IMG/VR virus record: IMGVR_UViG_3300049215_000467
Span: 1-41,229 of that record
DNA: 41,229 nucleotides
Origin: a virus
Reading direction: 5' to 3' (one strand)
The notes beneath the pieces were generated by a model. The model saw only the letters and a program-made list of their open reading frames with translations, ran no database searches and was not told the DNA's origin. The translations under genes were made by a program, and so were the position numbers. Shown here one piece after another: positions 2,746 to 40,470 of this stretch (positions within the stretch are counted from its first letter, which is position 1; every line of letters starts with the position of its first letter).

Positions 2746-2975
2746 AAATCGGCGACGTGTTACGAATTTGGAGCTGGTAAATCTTTTTTTTGATATAAGT
2801 TAAATTACGCTAGTCCGGCGTTAAGGACGTCGCGTATCGCCGCTCGCAATGGCTGTCGTATTTGCCCCTTCGCAATGGGCATAACCCACTTCTTTTGGGT
2901 TGATCGAACAGCGTATATGGTTCGCTACCTGATCCACTTATATTGAAGGATGAACTTCGAACCATAAGGTTTCGA
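2746..2975 (+). other. Long structured leader of the major capsid gene
   Basis: About 180 nt separate the promoter-like motif at 2786-2810 from the capsid ATG. The stretch contains no convincing gene. It has a hairpin AACCCA/TGGGTT near 2900 and two similar short segments, CTCGCAATGG and CTTCGCAATGG, near 2850 and 2869. It may be a regulatory leader; no known riboswitch was recognised. Confidence 0.35.
2786..2810 (+). promoter_or_regulatory. Putative extended -10 promoter of the capsid gene
   Basis: TGATATAAG (2791-2799) is a good extended -10 element, preceded by a run of eight T. The 25-nt segment ending in ATTACGC matches 20 of 25 positions at 7586-7610, just before another virion gene. 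The repetition supports a shared regulatory site. No good -35 is visible. Confidence 0.4.
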
Positions 2976-5900
2976 ATGTCGATTACTACAACTGGGAATC
3001 TCGGACCCATGATCTTGCAGTCGCTTGCGCCTGCAATGCTCTACGTTCCGACCCCAACCATATGAATTTGTGGTTGTAAAATCTCCTCTGATTGAGGTGG
3101 AAACCTATATTATACTTACCTACGTATTAATAGGCAACACTGCGGAAGCGAAAGCACCGTAATCGACTGAGCGAGGAGACCCTGAAGGGATGCGACAGTC
3201 AGGCCTCGGACCATAAATAAAATCCGAGAGGACGATTCGAAGAAATTGTCCCGCCGATAATTAATAGCAATTAATCGGTCATAAAAGTAACAGAAACGGA
3301 ATTACATCCTGGTATGTGACAAGGTGTCCATGCCTGCAAACGGGGGAACGACTTGCCGCTTTATGCGTGCAAGAGCCCTCGCACCGCCAACTATCCAGTT
3401 GGGTAACTCGGGGATTGATCCCCCAGCACAAGTGCCACAGCGTAGATTGTTTGCGCTGTATAAATCTTCTCTGATAGACTTGGAACTCGCAGCGTAAAGA
3501 CGGCGGCAACAAGGTCGAACTTTTTTAGGAACCACGGGTGTTTAGATGTTTCATCTGCTCATAAAGACTCAAGCGAAGATCGAAGGTTTCCTTCGTGAGA
3601 AATCGCTCGCGCTTAGCAAATGTTTCTCTGAATCTAATGGCTGCTTGACAGCGTTCTTTTTTGATGACGAGAAAAGGGTGAATGTCTTTAAGGAATTGCA
3701 ACATTTGAGGTCTTCGGACTTCCCAAATATATTGCTGTTTCCAATGTGGGTTAGCTTTTCTGCTGGGTGCGTTCATTTCATAGAAATGACCTCCAAAGTT
3801 TTTAAAAAGCCATTCCATGAGGCATTTATCGGTTGTAGAAACGTTTACACGAAGGTTGAATTGTCCTCTCCTAGATGGATCAATTTCGCTCTTCCAAAGC
3901 ATGATACTGCCCTCTCCGTCAATAATTCCTGCGAGATAGGCCAATTTTTCCCGATGATTCATGGTGTCCATAATGTTTGAAAGCAAAAATGATACCAGAT
4001 TGCGTACGTCGCAGTCAACTAGAAAAGACGATGAACGAAGCAAGCGAGAAGACTCACAAAATATTGATGAATGGTTAAGAAGTCCCGACAGCAAAGAAGA
4101 AATTGTCGAATTAGGGACTTGTTCTGGGATTCGTTTCATGACTTCCGAAGGTGAAAAAAGAATGGAACCAGGAAAAAGATATGACCAGAACCTCAATGAA
4201 TTGTGAGATGCGGTGCTCTGAACACGACAGTAATGTCGTGAGGGAAGTGCGATAGGCTTCCTCGCCATCATGGCGTTAGCTTTAACGATATGATGGTCAT
4301 GAAAGTAACAGAATGGACATAATTGATGCGCCAACGGCGTTTTTTGGAACTGGCTGTATTATAAATGAGCAAGTTATATTACAGGACCAGGAAGGAGTTT
4401 TGGCTTGGGTGTCCGAGCGTCTGGCTTAAAAAGCGATGGCCAGAAAAGCTTGTTTCAAATAAAATATTTAAGGTCGCTATGAGACAAGCCGAGGATTAAC
4501 GGAAATAAGTCCTCGATAAACCGACTCTAATTGACTTGGAAGCCCGACAGGGTAACAAGGGGCAAACGAAAGTAGCCTGAACGACTTAACGAGACGGGCC
4601 GAAAGGCATGCGAAAGTCTGAACTCGGACTATAAATAAAATCCGAGAGAGAATGCCGAAGAGCTTCTCCGCCTCATATGAGGTCATAAAAGTAACAGAAT
4701 GCTTATCCTCCGCGACTATATCCTCTCAGCTGCGTCGCAGATCAATGCAGGCGGCGGATCGAACGGCGACAATCCTACAAATTTAGGTGTGTCGGATTTT
4801 AGCCTCGTAGCTGCAACACTCGATAAACTTTGTGTCGAGTATAAATCTTCGATAATTGACTTGGAGTTCCTCGCTGCATAAGCAGACGGATAACAAGGGG
4901 CAAGCAATGTAAAGCTGTTTTACATGTGCAGCCTGAGAGACTAAATTCGAAGACCCGAAAGGGATGCGATAGTCCAATCTCCATAGAGATATGGAGAGGC
5001 GGCAGAAATGACCGCCCGCTTAAATAGATTGGTTAAGATGACGAACTTTTTGATAGATGATCTCTCTTCCGGATTTTTCACCAGAAAGAATCAACTTTCT
5101 AAGTTCAATCATCTGCTCGCAAATTGGTTTTTTGTGAACAAGGTAAGGTCGGATACCAACAAGAATAGGATCGAGTTGAAGATTTGCAATTCTCCAGATC
5201 ATTTGGTTTCTACAATTATGAAGATGGCTTTTATCAAGGAAATGAAATTGTCCTCCAAATTTTTTAGAAGCCCAATAGAAAAATGGAGATTTAGTGTTGT
5301 TGCATTGCAACTGCGCTCTATAAGATGGATTTTTCCCTCTTTTTTGTGTAGTTTTGCTAATGTCCAGACTGCACTCCGCATCAACGAACCCAGCAAGGTA
5401 TGCATAGTCCATATCAGAAGGCATGCAAGTGTCTCTGTTAGACTCTATGTCTTTTTTCAGAGAATGTGGAATAAGATAAGATTCCTCTTTGAGGATTTTC
5501 ATAGCTTTCAGGAGAGAAGATCTATCTTCTCGAAAGTTAGGACTTCTGAATTTGAGGAAAACATCACATTCTTGACCTTTCTCAATAAGAAAAGGTTTAA
5601 TTCTGGGAAGAAATCCGTATCCATCCTTGGAAAACACAAAATGATAAGATGGAACTCTATTTTTCTGACGAGACTTTTTGACATTTATACTTCCGTCAAA
5701 ATGACTCTGAAACCATTCGATATTATCGAAATGGGTAGAAATAATAGAAAAAGTGTCTTGGAAAAATGGAGAAGTTTTGGTTTCTCCAATATAAAAGCAA
5801 CCATCTCCATCGATATATCCAGCTGCGTAGGCCAACCAAGTCTCATTCATGCTTAAATGATTGCATGTATGGGTTATTTAAGTCAATAAGTAATAGGAAG

Positions 5901-6371
5901 ACAAACAACGCCTACAAATTCATGTCGGGCATTGAAGGTATGGATCGATTCGGCACAGGTCCAGTCCGGTCAGCATATTTCATGCTGTCCTCGACCGAAC
6001 TTCAACCGGATTTTGATGGACTCACCGGCTCAGGCTTCCTTAGCCAGTGGGCATACCCCACCAACGCGTCTGGGCTTAATTCGGAGTACGGGTCTGTCTA
6101 TAACATCCGTATCCTGTGCAGCTCGGAAGCACCTGTAGCGCGTGCAGCGTCTGCTAACTCTCGCGACGTGTATTACAATACCGTCGTTGGAAAGCAAGCG
6201 ATCACGCACATCAATCAGGACGGATACTCAATGAACTTGATTTATCGAGATCCATACTATTCTGGAATGTTGGCGCAAAACGCGACCTTAGCGGTCAAGT
6301 TTGCCCAAGCGCAAGCAATCACCCAGGATACGGCTATTAGAAACCTACTCTGCACACGCAGCGGTAACTAA
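2976..6371 (+). CDS. Major capsid protein (N4-gp56-like), split by four group I introns
   Basis: Exons reconstructed from coding similarity and from P1/P10 pairing are 2976-3061, 3299-3443, 4316-4496 (with an insert near 4424-4478), 4702-4824 and 5901-6371. The ATG at 2976 has AAGG 7 nt upstream. Joined, they give about 319 aa with landmarks of N4-gp56-type coat proteins: GNLGPMILQSLAPAM at the N-terminus, MPANGGTTCRF and LAPPTIQLGNSG, MRQAED-LILRD, then FGTGPVRSAYF and SEYGSVYNIRI. The protein forms the icosahedral shell. Each splice junction restores the frame exactly. The third exon holds a TAA at 4427 and changes frame before MRQAED, so the mature protein needs recoding there, unless the sequence is in error. 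Confidence 0.8.
3062..3298 (+). ncRNA. Group I intron 1 in the capsid gene (no ORF)
   Basis: 237 nt. The 5' exon end CAACCAT pairs with the internal guide GTGGTTG (7 bp, with the hallmark U-G wobble at the splice site), and the 3' exon start GAATT pairs with the AATTT just upstream of the guide (P10). The core shows GACTG...CAGTC (P7-like) with GGGATGCGACAGTC, the same S-type motif as introns 3 and 4. The intron ends in G after AACAGAAAC. Splicing joins AT to G to make an in-frame Met codon. Confidence 0.85.
3444..4315 (+). ncRNA. Group I intron 2 in the capsid gene (carries endonuclease gene)
   Basis: 872 nt. The exon end ACAGCGT pairs with the guide GCGCTGT, again with the U-G pair, and is followed by ATAAATCTTC as in intron 4. 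The intron ends GTAACAGAATG, matching intron 3. The 3' core (GTGCGATAGGC) is a weaker match to the P7 motif of the other three, so this may be a different subtype. It contains a LAGLIDADG gene on the antisense strand. A plus-strand frame at 3976-4206, rich in Lys and Glu, is open but unsupported. Confidence 0.75.
3525..3971 (-). CDS. LAGLIDADG homing endonuclease, single motif, antisense in intron 2
   Basis: 148 aa. The motif LAYLAGIIDGEGSI lies at residues 10-23, with the acidic residue E20 in the catalytic position. One motif means the enzyme should act as a homodimer. The start is taken at ATG 3971, just before the motif; the open frame extends further upstream but that part does not look coding. 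The gene lies wholly inside group I intron 2 but is transcribed on the opposite strand, so it cannot be translated from the capsid transcript and needs its own minus-strand promoter. Expected role: cut intronless capsid alleles to spread the intron. Confidence 0.8.
   Translation of the reverse strand: MDTMNHREKLAYLAGIIDGEGSIMLWKSEIDPSRRGQFNLRVNVSTTDKCLMEWLFKNFGGHFYEMNAPSRKANPHWKQQYIWEVRRPQMLQFLKDIHPFLVIKKERCQAAIRFRETFAKRERFLTKETFDLRLSLYEQMKHLNTRGS
4424..4478 (+). other. Short frame-breaking insert in the capsid coding sequence
   Basis: Coding reads through ...SERL (CTG 4421-4423) and GCT, then stops at TAA 4427. It resumes in another frame at ATG 4479 (MRQAED). Taking out 46-52 nt restores a capsid sequence of the expected spacing. 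A GCT codon occurs both directly before the stop and directly before ATG 4479. CTGGC (4421-4425) can pair with GCCAG (4439-4443). This resembles the T4 gene 60 translational bypass (matched take-off and landing codons, stop after take-off, hairpin). The new frame is also open from 4425, so a +1 frameshift or a sequencing error adding about 16 residues is possible. Confidence 0.5.
4497..4701 (+). ncRNA. Group I intron 3 in the capsid gene (no ORF)
   Basis: 205 nt. The exon end CGAGGAT pairs with the guide GTCCTCG, with U-G at the splice site. The core has AACGACTTAACG and GGCATGCGAAAGTC (P7 strands GACTT/AAGTC) and shares ACTCGGACTATAAATAAAATCCGAG-type P9 sequence with intron 1. It ends GTAACAGAATG; splicing joins GAT to CTT (ED-LILRD). 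P10 pairing is poor at the first exon base. Minimal intron without endonuclease gene. Confidence 0.85.
4825..5900 (+). ncRNA. Group I intron 4 in the capsid gene (carries endonuclease gene)
   Basis: 1076 nt. The exon end ACTCGAT pairs with the guide GTCGAGT (7 bp with U-G), and the 3' exon ACAAA pairs with TTTGT beside the guide. The core has GAGACTAAA and GGGATGCGATAGTCC near 4940-4975 (P7 GACTA/TAGTC), so most of the catalytic core lies before the endonuclease gene. Splicing joins LVAATLD to TNNAYKF in frame. A TGTAAAGC...TTTTACA inverted repeat lies at about 4908. Confidence 0.85.
5020..5850 (-). CDS. LAGLIDADG homing endonuclease, two motifs, antisense in intron 4
   Basis: 276 aa with two motifs, LAYAAGYIDGDG (residues 6-17) and YLAGFVDAEC (151-160). 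The catalytic acids are probably D16 and E159. The double motif predicts a monomeric enzyme with two pseudo-symmetric halves, the usual length for the class. The ATG at 5850 has no strong ribosome-binding site. The gene is antisense to the host intron and the capsid gene, like the unrelated-length enzyme in intron 2. It should promote intron homing into intron-free capsid genes. Confidence 0.88.
   Translation of the reverse strand: MNETWLAYAAGYIDGDGCFYIGETKTSPFFQDTFSIISTHFDNIEWFQSHFDGSINVKKSRQKNRVPSYHFVFSKDGYGFLPRIKPFLIEKGQECDVFLKFRSPNFREDRSSLLKAMKILKEESYLIPHSLKKDIESNRDTCMPSDMDYAYLAGFVDAECSLDISKTTQKRGKNPSYRAQLQCNNTKSPFFYWASKKFGGQFHFLDKSHLHNCRNQMIWRIANLQLDPILVGIRPYLVHKKPICEQMIELRKLILSGEKSGREIIYQKVRHLNQSI
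5901..6371 (+). CDS. Major capsid protein, last exon
   Basis: Largest exon (156 codons). It starts with ACA AAC AAC GCC TAC directly after intron 4 and has no start codon of its own. FGTGPVRSAYF, GFLSQWAYP and SEYGSVYNIRILCSSEAPV match the C-terminal half of N4-gp56-type coat proteins. The frame is also open upstream into the intron, so an automated call could wrongly extend it to 5766. Confidence 0.85.
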   Translation, partial: TNNAYKFMSGIEGMDRFGTGPVRSAYFMLSSTELQPDFDGLTGSGFLSQWAYPTNASGLNSEYGSVYNIRILCSSEAPVARAASANSRDVYYNTVVGKQAITHINQDGYSMNLIYRDPYYSGMLAQNATLAVKFAQAQAITQDTAIRNLLCTRSGN

Positions 6372-6382
6372 GGAGAAGTATT

Positions 6383-7510
6383 ATGGCTGAATATTCTAGA
6401 ATCGCTCGCGGTAGTTTCACGACTGCTGCTAGTCCTGTTACCCAAGTAGTTAACCTACCATTCCAGCCTCAACGGGTGGAACTGATTAACTACACCGCTT
6501 ACAGCGCGCCAGCTCAATACGCGACTTCCACAGCAGTGTGGGATATCGCAATGGGCCAAGGCTTCGCTGCATTAGAATACCTTGAAGCTGCTTCCGCACC
6601 TTGGATTCTGGCTGCTGACTATGTTCTTACCGGTGGTATCAACACATTCTCTGCTGGTCTATCGTTGCAGTATGGAGCTCAATTGCAGATCTCTGGAATT
6701 ACAAAAGCATCACCTGCCGTTGTAACTACAGCATCTGCGCATGGTTTGTCTTCAGGGAACGTAGTAATTCTCGAAGGTTTGTATCAGTCTGCGACCACCG
6801 GTATGCCGCAAATCAGCGGAATGCCGTTTGTCATCACTGTGACCGGATCGACGACATTTACTATCCCTTGGAACACCAACCAGTCGAATTACACTGCGTT
6901 GAGCGGGTCTCCTACAGGAGCCTTCGTTCGACAAGTTCTATACCCATGGCTTTATCTCCCTGGAGTGAACTTCGTCAGTGCAATCACTACTGGAACAACC
7001 ACTACCGTTACTACTACGTCGAATCACAACTTTGTCGTTGGACAAGAGATTGCGTTCAGGATTCCATCAGGTTATGGAACCACTCAGCTCAACTCATTGC
7101 CTAACGTTCTTATCCCAGGTCAACCGATCTATGGATATGTGACCTCGATCACTAGTAACACAGTCTTCGTTTGCAACATCAACTCTACGGGATTTACCGC
7201 CTTCAACAGCAACCAAACGGTTGCGTCTGTTCCTGGCTTAAATCTCCCACAAGTTCTTGCTGTAGGCGATGTGAATAGCGGCGGAGCTGCTTATGCTGGC
7301 GGTGCGTTGTATCCTAGCCCTTCCTTCCCAACGTTTTCGGGCGGAGCGGCTACGATCAATGGCCCTGCTATCAGCGGCGCTTATGTCAACAACACAAGCC
7401 AAGGCTTTACAGTCGGTCTAGGCGTAGGAAACGTGCAGTCAAATGCACTGTTGCTTACGGCTTCTTCGCTGTATGTCTGGACTGCGTTCCTTTACGACAT
7501 CTCAAATTGA
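6383..7510 (+). CDS. Virion protein with FCCH-like repeats
   Basis: 375 aa, AAGGAG 9 nt before the ATG, 11 nt after the capsid stop, so it is co-transcribed with the capsid gene. Two modules of the type often labelled E1-FCCH in phage structural proteins are visible. One has ISGITKASPAVVTTASAHGL (about residue 104). The second, around residue 195, has TTVTTTSNHNFVVGQEIAF. The second module is copied in the next gene. Composition (Thr, Ser, Gly, Asn; few charges) is that of a beta-rich virion surface or tail protein. A terminator follows the stop. Exact position in the virion is unknown; a decoration or head-completion role is possible. Confidence 0.75.
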   Translation: MAEYSRIARGSFTTAASPVTQVVNLPFQPQRVELINYTAYSAPAQYATSTAVWDIAMGQGFAALEYLEAASAPWILAADYVLTGGINTFSAGLSLQYGAQLQISGITKASPAVVTTASAHGLSSGNVVILEGLYQSATTGMPQISGMPFVITVTGSTTFTIPWNTNQSNYTALSGSPTGAFVRQVLYPWLYLPGVNFVSAITTGTTTTVTTTSNHNFVVGQEIAFRIPSGYGTTQLNSLPNVLIPGQPIYGYVTSITSNTVFVCNINSTGFTAFNSNQTVASVPGLNLPQVLAVGDVNSGGAAYAGGALYPSPSFPTFSGGAATINGPAISGAYVNNTSQGFTVGLGVGNVQSNALLLTASSLYVWTAFLYDISN

Positions 7511-9824: not shown

Positions 9825-10351
9825 TGACATATCCCGTAAACGGGTCAATTCCAGGACCCAATCAATTACTCTCTCAATCACAGGGTGATATTCAAGTCAA
9901 TTTCGCGAATATAATCGGCTGGTCTGCGGTAGATCATATCGAATACGGAGCCGTAAACGCAGGAACCCATGAACAAGTAACGATCATAACACCACAATCG
10001 GCTCCAACTGCCACATCAGCGGAAGGGGTAATTACTACACAGACGGTGACAAATAGCGAATTGTTCTTTACGAATGCTTCTAAAAACATTCAGATAACCA
10101 ATTCTTCTTTCGCGCCAGCCTCAGGCCAGGGATATTTGCCAGGAGGATTGCAAATAAGAGCGAGTAGTGGAACTGCTAATAATGCGAATATTGCTTTCTC
10201 CCCGGTATTTCCGACGGCACTTCTAAGCGTGGTCGCCACCATAGTTTCATCTGCCGCTACAAATTTGCAAATAACAGCTCAATCCAAGAATGGATTTTCG
10301 GCAAGCGGCCCCGGAAGTCCTACAATTAACTGGATCGCCATAGGCTACTAA
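9824..10351 (+). CDS. Putative tail/fibre-associated protein
   Basis: 175 aa; its ATG overlaps the previous stop by one base, and its own stop overlaps the next start. Ser/Thr/Asn/Ala-rich beta-type composition. The C-terminus INWIAIGY resembles the end of gp53-like fibre C-terminal domains, which close with W-x-AIG. It probably forms part of the tail between adaptor and tube proteins. Confidence 0.6.
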   Translation: MTYPVNGSIPGPNQLLSQSQGDIQVNFANIIGWSAVDHIEYGAVNAGTHEQVTIITPQSAPTATSAEGVITTQTVTNSELFFTNASKNIQITNSSFAPASGQGYLPGGLQIRASSGTANNANIAFSPVFPTALLSVVATIVSSAATNLQITAQSKNGFSASGPGSPTINWIAIGY

Positions 10352-13293
10352 TGCCAGACAAGATATTCATCGGCAATATTTCGAAGGGCCTCGAGCAGTT
10401 TTACTTGCCTTTCAATATCGACAATGATGCCCTTCCTACGCTCTACAATGCTTACTCATGGAGAGGTAGGATCAAAAGAAAGCGCGGCACCGTGACACTC
10501 GGGCGTTTGGAAATTCAACTCAAATCCGTCGCAGATTCAACGCCTCCTCTAAATTATCAAATAGGACAGCTTGCAACACTCTCTGGCGCCGGAGCTGCGT
10601 CGTTCAATATTCTTAGCAGTCCTATAACAGGAATCACTAACGCAGTGAACGCAGTGGTCACCGTGCCGCACAATCTATTTGCTCTTGAAACTCCGGTGAC
10701 GTTTTCTGGCGTTGTAGGAATGACGCAGATCAACGGCCTCACTGGAACTGTCATCGCTAGAAACATTGCCTCTAAAACCATCACAGTCAACATAAATTCT
10801 AGTGGATTTTCTTCGTATACGAGCGGAGGGACGGTGTCGATTGTTTCGAATGGAATCACCCCCGGATCAATTGAGTTGTACGACGGAACAAATACATATA
10901 CTGAACACTCCCCTCCAAACGGAACTCTAATAGGATCTCCCGCGGGCAGTGGAACAATAAATTATGAGAGTGGAGCGATTACAATATCCGCGGGGGCTGC
11001 CAATGGGGTTGTGGTTGGCGTAGCATCTGGAGCTACATACTCTTATTATCCCGGCCTCCCAGTAATGGGACTCAGGAATCTGACGGTCGGCGTTACGAAT
11101 TCTCAATACCCATTAAGCATCGCTTTCGACACAACATTTGCCTATGAATTGAATCCTAGTGGAATGGGATATTATGACATAAGTTATTACAAAAGCAGCA
11201 ATAACCCCGTAACTTGGACTGGACTAAATTATCAACAGTTTTGGACGTCTAATTATCAAGGATCTCTTTGGGCCACGAATAATGTGCCGGGCATGAGAAA
11301 TGCTTGGGTTCATGCTTGCGCCGATCAGACAGGTACTACTATTACGATGACGTTGTATAATCAGGCAGACAGCGCGCCTCTTACGACTCTTCTTGTAGAC
11401 GATTATCTTTGGTTTAATGAAGGGACTGGAACCACCTTTTCTCCGAATGGACAAACGGGATACATCTCCGACGCAAGCGGCAGCGCGAGCGGAATCTATG
11501 TAGTAACATTTACCGCTTCACAGACTGTATCTTCATATAGTGCCGATACAGCACTAGCCCAACTGCTCACGAGTCAGGCAACAGGTACTGGGGATGGGAT
11601 CCGATGGTTTGATGGAGACCCAACCGGAGGCACTGGAATACCATTGGGTGGGAATATCACTGGATGGGTCAATTTCGCCCCTCCGCTGACCGCTGGGATA
11701 ACCTCGATCGATGACGAGACTCCGAAAAAATATTACCTCGTTGGTGCACTAGCAATCGTTCCATTCAAAGATAGGCTGCTTTTTTTCAGTCCCTGGATTC
11801 AGGCGTCCGCTAAAAACAATACGCCTACCCCCATTCAGCTAAATGATGTAGTAATCTGGTCTTGGAACGGAACCCCCTATTACTCTTCATTGGCTCCGGT
11901 TAACGAAACATCTGTCGTTACTGCCTATTATACTGATCAGACTGGTTTTGGAGGCTGGCTCTCGGCGGGGATTAATCAAAATATCGTATCTGTCTCCAAC
12001 AACGAAGACGTTCTTTTGGTAGGTTTCACTGGAAAGCAAACTCGCTTCATCTACACTAGTAACGATCTTTATCCATTTTTCTTCTTTATCATCAACTCCG
12101 AGCTTGGAACTTCTGCAACCTTTTCTAGTGTCACCTTGGATCGCGGCGCAGTCTCTTTGGGCCAATATGGTCTAATCCTTACCGCACAAACCGAATGTCA
12201 GAGGATTGATCTTCAGATTCCAGACCAGATCTTCCAGCTTAATGGAATGAATAATTCCGTCCAGAGATTGAGTGCTGGTAGGGATTTTTACCATGAATGG
12301 ATTTACTTCACTTTCGTCCCGACTTCTTCTCAATGGGAATTTCCTACACAAACACTGCAGTACAATTATCGGGAAGAATCCTGGGCCATCCTGTATGAGA
12401 ATTTCACCGCTCACGGTGCGTTCCGGAGTCAGAGTGGGTATACGTGGTCAAATAACCCTTGGAATGCTTCATTGACCCCATGGGCAGGAATCAATGAATC
12501 GTGGAACTCTGGGGTCGCAAGTCCTCTTTTCCCAAGCGTCATAGCTGGAAATCCTCAGGGGTTCGTGGTGACAAAAGGAACAGGAACAGGAGAGGCTCCA
12601 ACAGGGGCTATCTCTCAAATTCTGAATAATGGCGGCCTAACTCAAATTTATTCTAGCAATCATTGCGTCGCAGAAAACGACTATCTCTATTTTAGTGCGG
12701 CCATTGGATCAACTTATCTCAATGGACAAATTGGACAGGTTGATACGATCATCGACGCAAATAATTTTACCGTTGATATCCCTTATCAATCTGGAACCTA
12801 TCTTGGTCTTGGGGTTTATGCGAGGCTGAGCCAGCCGCTAATTCAGACCAAGCAGTTCCCAGCTTATTGGAATGAGGGAAGGAAGGTAAGACTTGGGGCT
12901 CAAAAGTATCTTCTGGATTATACAGATGAGGGTCAGGCAACACTGAATATCTCTCTTTCGCAAGATCCTACAGATGCATGGAATAGAGGGCCTATCGTTC
13001 CCAATAACCAATCTACAAACAGCTCACTGATCTACTCGCAAACTCTTTTCACCTGTCCAGAATCGACGAATATAGGTCTTACTCAATTCACTCAGAGCGT
13101 CAACAATCCAAGCCCAATAGCAGAGTATCAATATCAAATCTGGCATCGAGTCAATACATCTCTCATCGGCGATACATTCCAGGTTGGCATTACTCTAAAC
13201 GACGCTCAGATGAGAAATCTTACCTACGCCATCAGCGAGATTGCGATTCATGCAATGCAATTCGACATAGACAGAGGGCCTAGTTTAGCGTGA
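10351..13293 (+). CDS. Large tail protein (tail-tubular-B / P22 gp10-like)
   Basis: 980 aa. The N-terminus (DNDALPTLYNAYSWRGRIKRKRGTV) has the basic 'names-of-position then KRxG' pattern of tail tubular protein B families. An FCCH-like module (VNAVVTVPHNLFALETPVTF...GMTQINGLTG, about residues 98-135) is inserted early. The remainder is beta-rich with repeated aromatic and Gly/Asn turns, consistent with a propeller-like tail nozzle. Starts at TAATG with the previous stop. Assigned as nozzle or stabilisation protein by size, order and N-terminus. Confidence 0.65.
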   Translation: MPDKIFIGNISKGLEQFYLPFNIDNDALPTLYNAYSWRGRIKRKRGTVTLGRLEIQLKSVADSTPPLNYQIGQLATLSGAGAASFNILSSPITGITNAVNAVVTVPHNLFALETPVTFSGVVGMTQINGLTGTVIARNIASKTITVNINSSGFSSYTSGGTVSIVSNGITPGSIELYDGTNTYTEHSPPNGTLIGSPAGSGTINYESGAITISAGAANGVVVGVASGATYSYYPGLPVMGLRNLTVGVTNSQYPLSIAFDTTFAYELNPSGMGYYDISYYKSSNNPVTWTGLNYQQFWTSNYQGSLWATNNVPGMRNAWVHACADQTGTTITMTLYNQADSAPLTTLLVDDYLWFNEGTGTTFSPNGQTGYISDASGSASGIYVVTFTASQTVSSYSADTALAQLLTSQATGTGDGIRWFDGDPTGGTGIPLGGNITGWVNFAPPLTAGITSIDDETPKKYYLVGALAIVPFKDRLLFFSPWIQASAKNNTPTPIQLNDVVIWSWNGTPYYSSLAPVNETSVVTAYYTDQTGFGGWLSAGINQNIVSVSNNEDVLLVGFTGKQTRFIYTSNDLYPFFFFIINSELGTSATFSSVTLDRGAVSLGQYGLILTAQTECQRIDLQIPDQIFQLNGMNNSVQRLSAGRDFYHEWIYFTFVPTSSQWEFPTQTLQYNYREESWAILYENFTAHGAFRSQSGYTWSNNPWNASLTPWAGINESWNSGVASPLFPSVIAGNPQGFVVTKGTGTGEAPTGAISQILNNGGLTQIYSSNHCVAENDYLYFSAAIGSTYLNGQIGQVDTIIDANNFTVDIPYQSGTYLGLGVYARLSQPLIQTKQFPAYWNEGRKVRLGAQKYLLDYTDEGQATLNISLSQDPTDAWNRGPIVPNNQSTNSSLIYSQTLFTCPESTNIGLTQFTQSVNNPSPIAEYQYQIWHRVNTSLIGDTFQVGITLNDAQMRNLTYAISEIAIHAMQFDIDRGPSLA

Positions 13294-38343: not shown

Positions 38344-40470
38344 ATTTCTTTTTACTATCCCCCTTGGAACGCAGACGTCGAGCCCTCCCAAGTGAATGTT
38401 CGCCAATGGCTCGATAATCTCTACAGCAAGTTCCAGCCCATCGAACAAGCCCGATGGAACCAAAGCAATATCGACACTCTATTTTACGCAGGTTCACAGA
38501 CATTCATCAATCGATATTTTAATTTCACTCCATCATTCAGCTACCAGAACTTCTACTTCAACCTGATCCAGCAACCCGTAAATATGGTCACTGGCTATCA
38601 ACGCCAACACCGCAAAAACATCAATTACATCCCCTCTGAAGGTGCTGACCCAAATACGACCGACCAGTACACTCGCCTCGTTACTCACATTTCCAACACA
38701 GAAGGGATCAATGAGCAATTTTCTAAAGCGTGTGAATTGGCAGCGGTTAGCGGAATGGTTCTTCTTCAGCCTTACTTGGATTATACTGGGGACGATCCTG
38801 CTCAAGGGTCACTGCGGCTCAAGATATGGGAATACAACGCATTCCTCGTTGATCCATACTTCCGAAACCCCGATATGTCAGATGCTCAGTTCGTCTGGTG
38901 CCAAGAATACATCTCCAAGAAAGAAGCTGAGGCAAGATTCCCCGATAAGATCGGAAACATTTCCCCAATGGCCGGCACTCCGCAGCGTTACGGATCATTT
39001 TACTTCTTGCCCGAAAACTACAACATGGCTCGTAACGACCTCATGGTCTTATCCTACGTGTGGTACAAATGGAAAAAGAAGAAAAAGCGATTGTATTCTG
39101 CCCAAAGAAATCAATTTTTCGACTTCGGAGGCGGCGAGCCGCAACTCGACCAGATCTTATATCATATCCCTGACCTGGAAGTTGTAGAAATTGAAGTACC
39201 AACATGGAAATTAGCAACAGTCCTGAATGATCAACTTATGTTCCAAGGGGACAATCCCCTGGGTTTTGACAGTTGTCCCTTCATACCGGTCTTCTGGAAC
39301 TACGAACCCCATATTAATTATTACGATCTTCGGGTTCGTTCTCTTATTAAGACAATGCGAGACCCACAATTTCTTTTGAATCGTAGAATCATCCTCAATC
39401 ACGATATCAGCGAATCTTCGATCAACACGGGATATAAACGAAAGGTTGGGGCGGTTGGAAATGAAGACAACCTGAAGAAGTCTGGCCAAGGCTGGGATAT
39501 CTTAATCAACGAAGGTTACGAGATGACCGACGTAGAGAAGATTATTCCTAACGCCGTTCCCCCCTCGGACATGGCTTTAGCCGATCAGCTCACGAATCTC
39601 ATCTTCAGCGTCTCCGGCATCAATATGGAGAGCTGGACTGGAGATGATCAAAAACAGCTGTCTGGTCTTACTCTGATGTTGAAACAAGCGGCTAATCTCA
39701 CCATCCTGCAAAAGTACTTCGATCAATGGGATTTCAGCCTAAAACAGCTGGGAGACAGGATTCTACAGATCATTCTCAATGGGTGGAATGCTCAGAAAGT
39801 AGGCCTTATCATAGGCGAAGAGCCAAGTCCTCACTTTTTCTCACGTATATTTGCCAAATACCAAGTGATAGTGGAAGAGGGAGCGAATACTCCAACTCAG
39901 CAAGCCGCCCAGGCTCAGCAATTACTCGAGATCAATCAGATCTACGGACGAGAGGTGTTTCCGCCATCGTTCGTGATCAAGAACATGAATCTATCGGGCA
40001 AAGCAGAGGCGATGGAGTTCTTGCAGCAGCAAGAGCAACAAGCGTCGTCACAAGCGGAACATGCGCAGATGGTCGCGGGTGCGCTTGAAGAAGCTAAACT
40101 CAAAGAGCTGTATTCTAAGGCTGTCAGCAACATCGCTACCGCCCGCGAGAAACATGGTCGTGCCGAGAGCAACATAGGGTTATTTGAGGAAAGATTATCG
40201 ATGATCGGGCGCAACAACAGCATGAGCGCAAAAGCTAAAGCTGAAGCTCTCGAGAAGCTCGTTGAAGTGACCCATCGCTATGGTGAGCTCGAGGCTCATC
40301 TCAAGATGAACGAACTTGAATCGATCGACAATCAGGAAGAGAACAAGGAAGCGATGGCGAAAGCCGACGCTAAACGAACTTCGATGGCGAACGATTTTGT
40401 CGCACAGATGCTGGCAGGTGGTATGAGTGGTCAGCAGGTTCAAGAACAGGGTCAAATGCAAGGGCAATAG
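38344..40470 (+). CDS. Portal protein (P22-type), probable ATT start
   Basis: NLIQQPVNMVTGYQRQHRKNI, RNPDMSDAQFVWCQEYISKKEAEARFPDKI and the Gln-rich helical C-terminus are typical of P22-like portals, the dodecameric ring through which DNA enters and leaves. A GTG exists at 38392. Upstream, however, the same frame reads ISFYYPPWNADVEPSQ from an ATT at 38344, 5-6 nt after AGAGGTG, and that peptide looks like the real N-terminus. An ATT start would give about 708 aa. Stop at 40470. Confidence 0.85.
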   Translation: MSFYYPPWNADVEPSQVNVRQWLDNLYSKFQPIEQARWNQSNIDTLFYAGSQTFINRYFNFTPSFSYQNFYFNLIQQPVNMVTGYQRQHRKNINYIPSEGADPNTTDQYTRLVTHISNTEGINEQFSKACELAAVSGMVLLQPYLDYTGDDPAQGSLRLKIWEYNAFLVDPYFRNPDMSDAQFVWCQEYISKKEAEARFPDKIGNISPMAGTPQRYGSFYFLPENYNMARNDLMVLSYVWYKWKKKKKRLYSAQRNQFFDFGGGEPQLDQILYHIPDLEVVEIEVPTWKLATVLNDQLMFQGDNPLGFDSCPFIPVFWNYEPHINYYDLRVRSLIKTMRDPQFLLNRRIILNHDISESSINTGYKRKVGAVGNEDNLKKSGQGWDILINEGYEMTDVEKIIPNAVPPSDMALADQLTNLIFSVSGINMESWTGDDQKQLSGLTLMLKQAANLTILQKYFDQWDFSLKQLGDRILQIILNGWNAQKVGLIIGEEPSPHFFSRIFAKYQVIVEEGANTPTQQAAQAQQLLEINQIYGREVFPPSFVIKNMNLSGKAEAMEFLQQQEQQASSQAEHAQMVAGALEEAKLKELYSKAVSNIATAREKHGRAESNIGLFEERLSMIGRNNSMSAKAKAEALEKLVEVTHRYGELEAHLKMNELESIDNQEENKEAMAKADAKRTSMANDFVAQMLAGGMSGQQVQEQGQMQGQ

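Follow-up and report, generated by a model that had tools for sequence, protein, structure and literature searches.

The window analyzed here, positions 1–41,229 of viral record IMGVR_UViG_3300049215_000467, contains a capsid gene (MCP) interrupted by five inserts. Alignment to intronless relatives placed the insert boundaries, using a small tie-break bonus for T and G and none for P1 pairing. Once the five inserts are removed, the gene restores a 319-aa protein that matches the major head protein phrog_1357 (E 1.3e-17). Only 960 of the gene's 3396 nt are coding, in agreement with an earlier sequence-based note that had put the coding share at about 28%. The features are listed below; exons were placed by alignment to intronless relatives (exon 1 by spliced alignment) and introns by alignment plus the evidence indicated.

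2976–3061, + strand: MCP exon 1
3062–3298, + strand: intron 1, full group I, at an early site in phase 2 (covariance model 140.2 bits)
3299–3443, + strand: MCP exon 2
3444–4315, + strand: intron 2, full group I, ORF-interrupted (covariance 52.7 bits for the 3' half, 17.2 bits for the 5' half)
3525–4001, - strand: antisense ORF stretch in intron 2 with one LAGLIDADG-type motif (Pfam LAGLIDADG_1, E 0.034, below the cut-off)
4316–4426, + strand: MCP exon 3a
4427–4472, + strand: core-less satellite intron of 46 nt (P1/P10 pairings; no covariance match)
4473–4496, + strand: MCP exon 3b, a micro-exon of 24 nt
4497–4701, + strand: intron 3, full group I, 205 nt (covariance model 164.9 bits)
4702–4824, + strand: MCP exon 4
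4825–5900, + strand: intron 4, full group I (covariance 128.5 bits at 4842–5052)
5020–5850, - strand: double-motif LAGLIDADG homing endonuclease gene, antisense, in intron 4 (Pfam LAGLIDADG_1, E 1.9e-8, two stretches)
5901–6371, + strand: MCP exon 5, up to the stop codon

The four long inserts had been read as group I introns, an assignment that our analysis supports and that predicts GTP-dependent self-splicing. The covariance model scores listed above come from a model built without the window, which finds all four introns at the boundaries defined by the intronless relatives. As the earlier note had observed, each has a P1 with a U.G pair, and introns 1, 3, and 4 share a recognizable P7 motif. 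Intron 2 has a variant of it. Each long intron also has a final G and the core helices P3–P8 with the P7 pseudoknot. Both-side changes occur in 31 of the 35 predicted core pairs, and 95.7% of cells are paired (99.3% in P7) compared to 68.3% in shuffles. The covariance check proposed earlier, a search with Rfam, returned no group I match at the gathering score, nor at E<=10 within positions 2900–6500, whereas the family-specific model matches all four introns. Rfam alone would therefore have produced the refuting outcome named in the note, and the family-specific model overturns it. A match to a public Rfam model is not a defining structural feature of group I introns. Three chance Rfam matches (E 1.7–4.2) were disregarded.

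The claim that all joins are in frame proved wrong in exon 3, which contains the fifth insert, missed by the earlier note. This 46-nt sequence (4427–4472) carries an in-frame TAA; the 319-aa protein is whole only if the 46 nt are also removed. The insert has a P1 with U.G, a P10, and a final G; the catalytic core is absent, and the covariance model built without the window finds no match. Its guide and tail elements are as follows.

4432–4443, + strand: guide of the satellite intron, comprising the P10 strand (4432–4437, pairs with 4473–4478) and the IGS (4438–4443, pairs with 4421–4426, U.G at the splice site)
4448–4457, + strand: tail of the satellite, paired to exon positions 4480–4489 directly before the P1 of intron 3

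The minimum-energy fold of the satellite displays the P1 and tail helices. The same site is also occupied in three relatives (L024, L028, and L136) by inserts of other sequence with compensating pairings.

Inserts of this type recur in related capsid genes. After merging of identical C-terminal regions had reduced 162 loci to 111 genes (two of them, L017 and L052, cut by contig ends), we found 40 core-less inserts, excluding coding-length differences of 15 nt at amino acids 247–251 from the insert counts. The model for L013 (site 81) is misplaced, and the ends for L079 and L104 (site 144) and L015 (site 69) deviate by a few bases. Of the 40 small introns, 38 entered alignment A1; whole-record scans covered 50 of the 54 insert-free loci and 49 of the 56 insert-bearing loci plus the window. 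Core-less inserts measure approximately 30–80 nt, or up to about 1 kb when they carry their own homing endonuclease; the eight inserts of 325–987 nt at site 104 gave no match to the covariance model. All 40 have a T.G P1 plus a P10 (shuffle p <= 0.015 each). Furthermore, every one of the 40 has a full group I intron as the next insert downstream, compared to a mean of 17.5 and a maximum of 28 such cases in across-gene permutations. This order could stem from the tag function described below alone rather than from a splicing dependence. The tail pairs just upstream of the next intron's P1, and the pairing covaries between genomes. It reached p<0.05 in 31 of the 40 inserts and was not significant in the other nine, in a test relative to the next intron that was designed after part of the data had been seen; an initial test against the near 3' exon had given poor results at site 91 and mixed results at site 104. 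The tail pairing measured 7.74 with its own exon versus 6.03 with the exon of other genomes (p 9e-7).

Reading of the unspliced message into these inserts yields C-terminal ends resembling degradation tags. In the window, read-through of intron 2 ends in ...SLIDLELAA (stop 3495–3497) and that of intron 4 in ...SIIDLEFLAA (stop 4879–4881), both with the in-frame C-terminal -(L)AA of ssrA-like tags. Introns 1 and 3 have immediate stops (PTPTI-stop at the early site and QAED-stop, respectively) and no tag of their own. The satellite upstream of intron 3 reads ...VSERLA (stop 4427–4429), a weaker form (LA rather than AA) of the ERLAA-stop of its relatives. Across the family, Ala-Ala immediately before the stop (AA-stop), typically as Leu-Ala-Ala like the ssrA degradation tag, ends the read-through of 36 of 40 core-less inserts and of 41 of the 46 full introns that lie past codon 66 and are not directly preceded by a core-less insert. 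The same ending is found in none of 18 early introns and in only three of the 40 full introns that follow a core-less insert (Fisher tests for contrasts among the insert classes, 3e-15 and 9e-12). The pattern holds after clustering (core-less 18/22, late full 20/24, after core-less 0/16, early 0/11), and the background is 180 of 51,866 stop-ended frames (0.35%). There are exceptions: L029 lacks both a core-less insert and a tag on its late intron, and AA-stop is also absent in L107, L134, L110 (site 122), and L061 (site 90). Some divergent MCP introns end in VVAFS, VVALS, or VAIS before the stop.

The tag-like ends are kept in frame with the capsid exons. The 80 AA-stop ends are encoded by 49 different nucleotide strings and stay in frame at both phase 0 and phase 2 sites. 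Scanning for the intron sequence with LAA codons, without regard to exon frame, returned 84 matches. Of these, 82 lay in loci with an MCP match, and all 69 testable ones were in the frame of the MCP exon. In a sample not selected for LAA, in which P1 and exon frame were usable for 41 of 79 introns, [AV]A-stop ends occurred in 15 of 22 MCP introns (five of these rows also found by the LAA scan) versus one of 19 introns in other genes (p 6e-5). Cultured phages provided further examples: read-through of the MCP intron of mycobacteriophage LittleE ends in ...WNSVATAAA-stop and that of the tail intron of mycobacteriophage BAKA in ...LSDDLAAAAA-stop. Capsid exon 1 (55 aa) of lactococcal phage Tuc2009 has no tag.

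We consider it likely, from these sequence patterns, that introns of capsid genes tag the products of unspliced messages for degradation and that core-less satellites supply the tag where the next intron has none. All five inserts would be removed at the RNA level. Ribosomes entering an unspliced insert would produce a protein with a C-terminal -LAA or -AA peptide, and host proteases that act on ssrA-type tags, such as ClpXP and its relatives, would degrade it. The proteases of this phage's host may differ in tag preference from the ssrA-type -LAA. Degradation of the tagged, truncated capsid fragments would prevent them from poisoning assembly. The satellite, having no ribozyme, may borrow for its splicing the core of the group I intron that follows, with the tail tying both together, and would provide the tag for an untagged neighbor such as intron 3. 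Such a supply requires that the satellite be removed after, or together with, the downstream intron. The stronger, two-part version, in which the next intron's ribozyme splices the core-less satellites, all inserts carry programmed tags that condemn the truncated product of every unspliced capsid mRNA, and removal of the neighbor always precedes that of the satellite, strikes us as evenly poised between true and false. If this is true, no earlier natural example is known to us in which a group I core works for other introns, themselves core-less, of the same transcript. It would also describe introns adapted to protein quality control, because tagging the products of unspliced messages lowers the parasite's cost in a shell-protein gene. 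The presence of as many as six insertions in strongly expressed capsid genes, whose fragments are expected to be dominant-negative, would also be explained.

The core-less inserts could instead be self-sufficient miniature group I introns whose position only reflects the need for a tag, an option we regard as unlikely. The small 'degenerate' introns (63–75 nt) of Phialophora SSU rRNA also have a P1 with G.U, a P10, a mid-intron pairing with the 3' exon, and a core that is mostly absent (PMC3160393). One of them, PaSSU (67 nt), has the same three pairings as the core-less inserts and splices in vitro (PMC3160393). In the window, the mid-intron pairing joins 4448–4457 to 4480–4489. However, the Phialophora introns have a final U, keep P7, and reside in rRNA, whereas the capsid core-less inserts end in G, code for tags, and pair beside a second, complete intron. 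The place of the tail pairing is fixed relative to the next intron and not to the insert, and a full intron follows in every case. If inserts were removed early and independently, moreover, fragments ending at the next intron would carry no tag. Much less probable is that the LAA ends arise from intron structure as a by-product with no tag role. The tag codons of full introns do fall in the P5 loop, and one reading frame of the conserved core string GCAGCNTGA yields a share of the AA-stop ends. Yet early introns and introns after a core-less insert have the same core and lack, or rarely have, these ends, and core-less inserts have them without any P5. The diversity of codings, the retention of frame at both phases, and the absence of a tag-like end in 18 of 19 introns of other genes also argue against a by-product.

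Translational bypass, with ribosomes hopping over the inserts, accounts for their short length, the in-frame stop at or near the 5' side, and the adjoining hairpin. The T4 gene 60 bypass element is, similarly, a stop-containing insert of about 50 nt in a phage gene and is not known to have group I splice-site pairings. In the core-less inserts, by contrast, take-off and landing codons do not match (in none of the 34 phase-0 cases listed do exon and insert end in the same three bases), and bypass leaves the P10, final G, and tail pairing unexplained, which makes it very improbable. We give the least credence to a decay scar or assembly error in a dead gene. The 46-nt insert does break the reading frame and lies near QM to PT changes in exon 3, but the remainder of the capsid gene is intact and the three relatives occupied at the same site, with different sequence and compensating pairings, argue against a scar.

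The preferred reading, tag-encoding introns served by satellites, has partial parallels in known systems. RT-PCR demonstrated splicing of the LittleE capsid and BAKA tail group I introns, which resemble those of the window in group I type, U at the 5' exon end, G at the intron end, location in a capsid gene, and an antisense LAGLIDADG-like gene (PMC3706429). The window differs in having four introns plus one core-less insert. The available part of that report makes no mention of the read-through tags that we found in both phages (PMC3706429). Spliceozymes, which are engineered trans-acting group I ribozymes, remove a core-free intron with one core, as is proposed here for the satellite, except that their guide is in the ribozyme and not, as here, in the insert (PMC4094466). 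The ssrA-like tag of the mycobacteriophage BPs repressor differs in that it is removed by DNA integration rather than RNA splicing and regulates lysogeny (PMC4557955). In the open-access literature, we found no description of intron-encoded degradation tags or satellite group I introns.

The proposal that the introns spread from one to another within the window gene was not supported. When the last 110 nt were compared, the nearest neighbor came from a different genome for all but two of 104 long introns: 87 of these neighbors occupied a different site and 15 the same site. The remaining two lay at a different site of the intron's own gene. The common GTAACAG end of introns 1–3 is real, but it is a family-wide feature that most of these introns have in other phages. 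A search of a phage collection returned no MCP relative, and a search of plasmids found none either. The sole phage-collection match, of 33 nt, was to an intron of Desulfovibrio phage 7757 in an ORF that by eye resembles ribonucleotide reductase; its read-through ends in PNPSTWAR-stop. The 3525–4001 stretch in intron 2 is the C-terminal part of an antisense ORF (3525–4334). In introns 2 and 4, the earlier note had overlooked the antisense LAGLIDADG-type ORFs and the read-through into -LAA.

The window spans a complete virus record from IMG/VR (41,229 bases) and carries at 2976-6371 a gene for the major head (capsid) protein, whose spliced product matches phrog_1357 (E 1.3e-17). Relatives of this gene are plentiful in viral metagenomes (196, 195 and 181 confirmed matches in separate searches, with 80 retained from each set); none was found among the 50,697 phage records searched. 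Six related loci come from genome bins and, because the bin labels span several unrelated phyla, we assigned no host. Downstream, at 6383-7510 and 10351-13293, the window encodes two structural proteins with a Pfam E1_FCCH-type domain.

For this work we wrote a spliced aligner that compares protein with DNA and places no limit on insert length or phase. An intronless relative served as the reference, and the runs covered 162 loci, which represent 111 distinct genes. Fifty-four of the distinct genes lack inserts and 57 contain 144 inserts in total. Five are in the window's capsid gene, and two of these hold antisense genes. The read-through ends listed are those of peptides translated from the exon into the unspliced insert.

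Inserts in the capsid gene of the window (spliced alignment to an intronless relative)
3062-3298, intron 1; read-through end ...PTPTI
3444-4315, intron 2; read-through end ...LIDLELAA
3525-4001, minus strand, weak LAGLIDADG-type gene (E 0.034) antisense to intron 2, which holds it
4427-4472, core-less satellite; read-through end ...SERLA
4497-4701, intron 3; read-through end ...QAED
4825-5900, intron 4; read-through end ...IIDLEFLAA
5020-5850, minus strand, LAGLIDADG-type gene (clear double-motif enzyme) antisense to intron 4, which holds it

Taking out all five inserts restores an unbroken 319-aa protein in the gene model. The earlier note had proposed four introns in this gene, and all four are right because the aligner gives them and the exons agree with intronless relatives at each junction; the note overlooked a fifth insert of 46 nt in exon 3, which contains an in-frame TAA. 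In four relatives (L013, L015, L046 and L053), 1- and 4-base length changes near amino acids 82 and 96 (e.g., GATCGATTAAGGCGCAA) lie 3' of the site-69 intron and break the frame locally.

The long inserts belong to the group I class of introns. A structure alignment of 38 small introns, all from genomes other than the window, gives helices P3, P4, P5, P6 and P8 together with two 3' helices; of the 35 pairs, 31 show both-side changes. With P7 added, 95.7% of cells are paired versus 68.3% in shuffles. The proposed group I identity gained nothing from an Rfam scan, which gave no group I match in the window, and was borne out by the family-specific model from this alignment, which was built without the window sequence and found all four long introns. 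The 46-nt insert had no match to this model.

Core-less inserts have group I splice-site pairings without the catalytic core. Thirty-two are 30-79 nt long and eight, all at one site, are 325-987 nt. All 40 combine P10 with a P1 that has T.G at the splice site (p <= 0.015 each versus dinucleotide shuffles), and the exon strand of P1 changes together with its guide (CTGGCT/GGCCAG in the window, TTGGCT/GGCCAA in the relative L024). The long core-less inserts examined have sense ORFs within the P1 loop, namely a 74-aa ORF in L063 and two endonuclease genes:

L009:2055-2924, sense, LAGLIDADG endonuclease in the P1 loop of a site-104 core-less insert
L046:4695-5573, sense, LAGLIDADG endonuclease in the P1 loop of a site-104 core-less insert

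These site-104 inserts, each with a homing endonuclease gene, amount to mobile elements that lack a ribozyme of their own. Core-less inserts are also found in remoter capsid genes (~40-49% identity; L213, L292 and L180), where pairings were judged by eye.

The next insert after a core-less one was a full intron in 40 of 40 cases, versus a mean of 17.5 (maximum 28) in across-gene and 24.7 (maximum 34) in within-gene permutations. The tail, which follows the guide on its 3' side, base-pairs to exon sequence immediately 5' of the next intron's P1; this is seen for seven different downstream sites, and the pairing usually ends 8-11 nt 5' of that intron's 5' splice site. Tail-pairing scores averaged 7.80 versus 4.50 when shuffled (p<0.05 in 31/40), and fell from 7.74 to 6.03 when exons were swapped between genomes (38 cases, p 9e-7). 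The window's satellite tail lies at 4448-4457 and its exon partner at 4480-4489; P1 and this tail helix are exactly what the minimum-energy fold of the region shows. Core-less satellites may thus borrow the catalytic core of the next intron, a proposal that rests on pairing and position. Self-sufficient splicing of the core-less inserts, without the downstream core, is a live rival because tiny group I-like mini-introns described in Phialophora can splice given exon context (PMC3160393).

The C-terminal ends produced by translation from exon into insert obey a rule. Introns before codon 40 gave AA ends in 0/18 cases, with stops immediate or at random. Full introns past codon 66 without a core-less insert just before them gave AA ends in 41/46 (typically LIDLELLAA), and core-less inserts in 36/40, the remaining four being three VA ends and the window's LA. 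Full introns directly after a core-less insert had AA ends in 3/40 and, in many cases, an immediate stop. Clustering by site and sequence left 0/11 early, 20/24 late full, 18/22 core-less and 0/16 after core-less. The background rate is 0.35%, the ends are coded variously (49 strings among 80 cases) and their frame is maintained whether the site is phase 0 or phase 2.

The tags added by ssrA end in LAA, and ClpXP recognises such ends. Strong statistics underlie the reading that the capsid-gene introns encode degradation tags for unspliced products. The introns would mark these products for destruction and core-less satellites would supply the mark upstream of introns that have none; splicing with the satellite last is a prediction that would make the tag useful. 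Among phages, the BPs repressor has a documented ssrA-like tag that the phage itself encodes (PMC4557955). Exceptions to the tag reading are the window's weaker LA end, rule-breaking introns and VVAFS-type ends. The clearest rule-breaker is a late full intron (L029, site 120) with an immediate stop and no preceding core-less insert. Divergent capsid introns in L272, L292, L314, L317 and L327 end in VVAFS*, VVALS*, AVANS* or VAIS* and may represent a further type of tag.

When we looked for the intron string with LAA codons, leaving exon frame out of account, 84 matches came up; 82 of them lie in loci with a major capsid protein (MCP) match, and the frame was that of the MCP exon in 69/69 testable matches. 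Scanning without the LAA requirement, we found [AV]A ends in 15/22 MCP introns versus 1/19 in other genes (10/17 versus 1/19, p 8e-4, minus five loci common to the LAA scan). Portal-gene introns of the same family (L166-L177), which lie close to the gene start, carry no tags: none had an AA end in an exon-fitting frame, some of these frames being uncertain. The window's own portal gene (38392-40470) is P22-like and intron-free. A related group I intron without a tag is present in the unannotated record of Desulfovibrio phage 7757 (L379, OR395405), within an ORF resembling ribonucleotide reductase. Related introns of cultured mycobacteriophages lie in the LittleE capsid and BAKA tail genes, and their splicing was shown by RT-PCR (PMC3706429). 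Their read-through ends are WNSVATAAA* and LSDDLAAAAA*, respectively, and the two introns are 91.7% identical across 85% of the BAKA intron.
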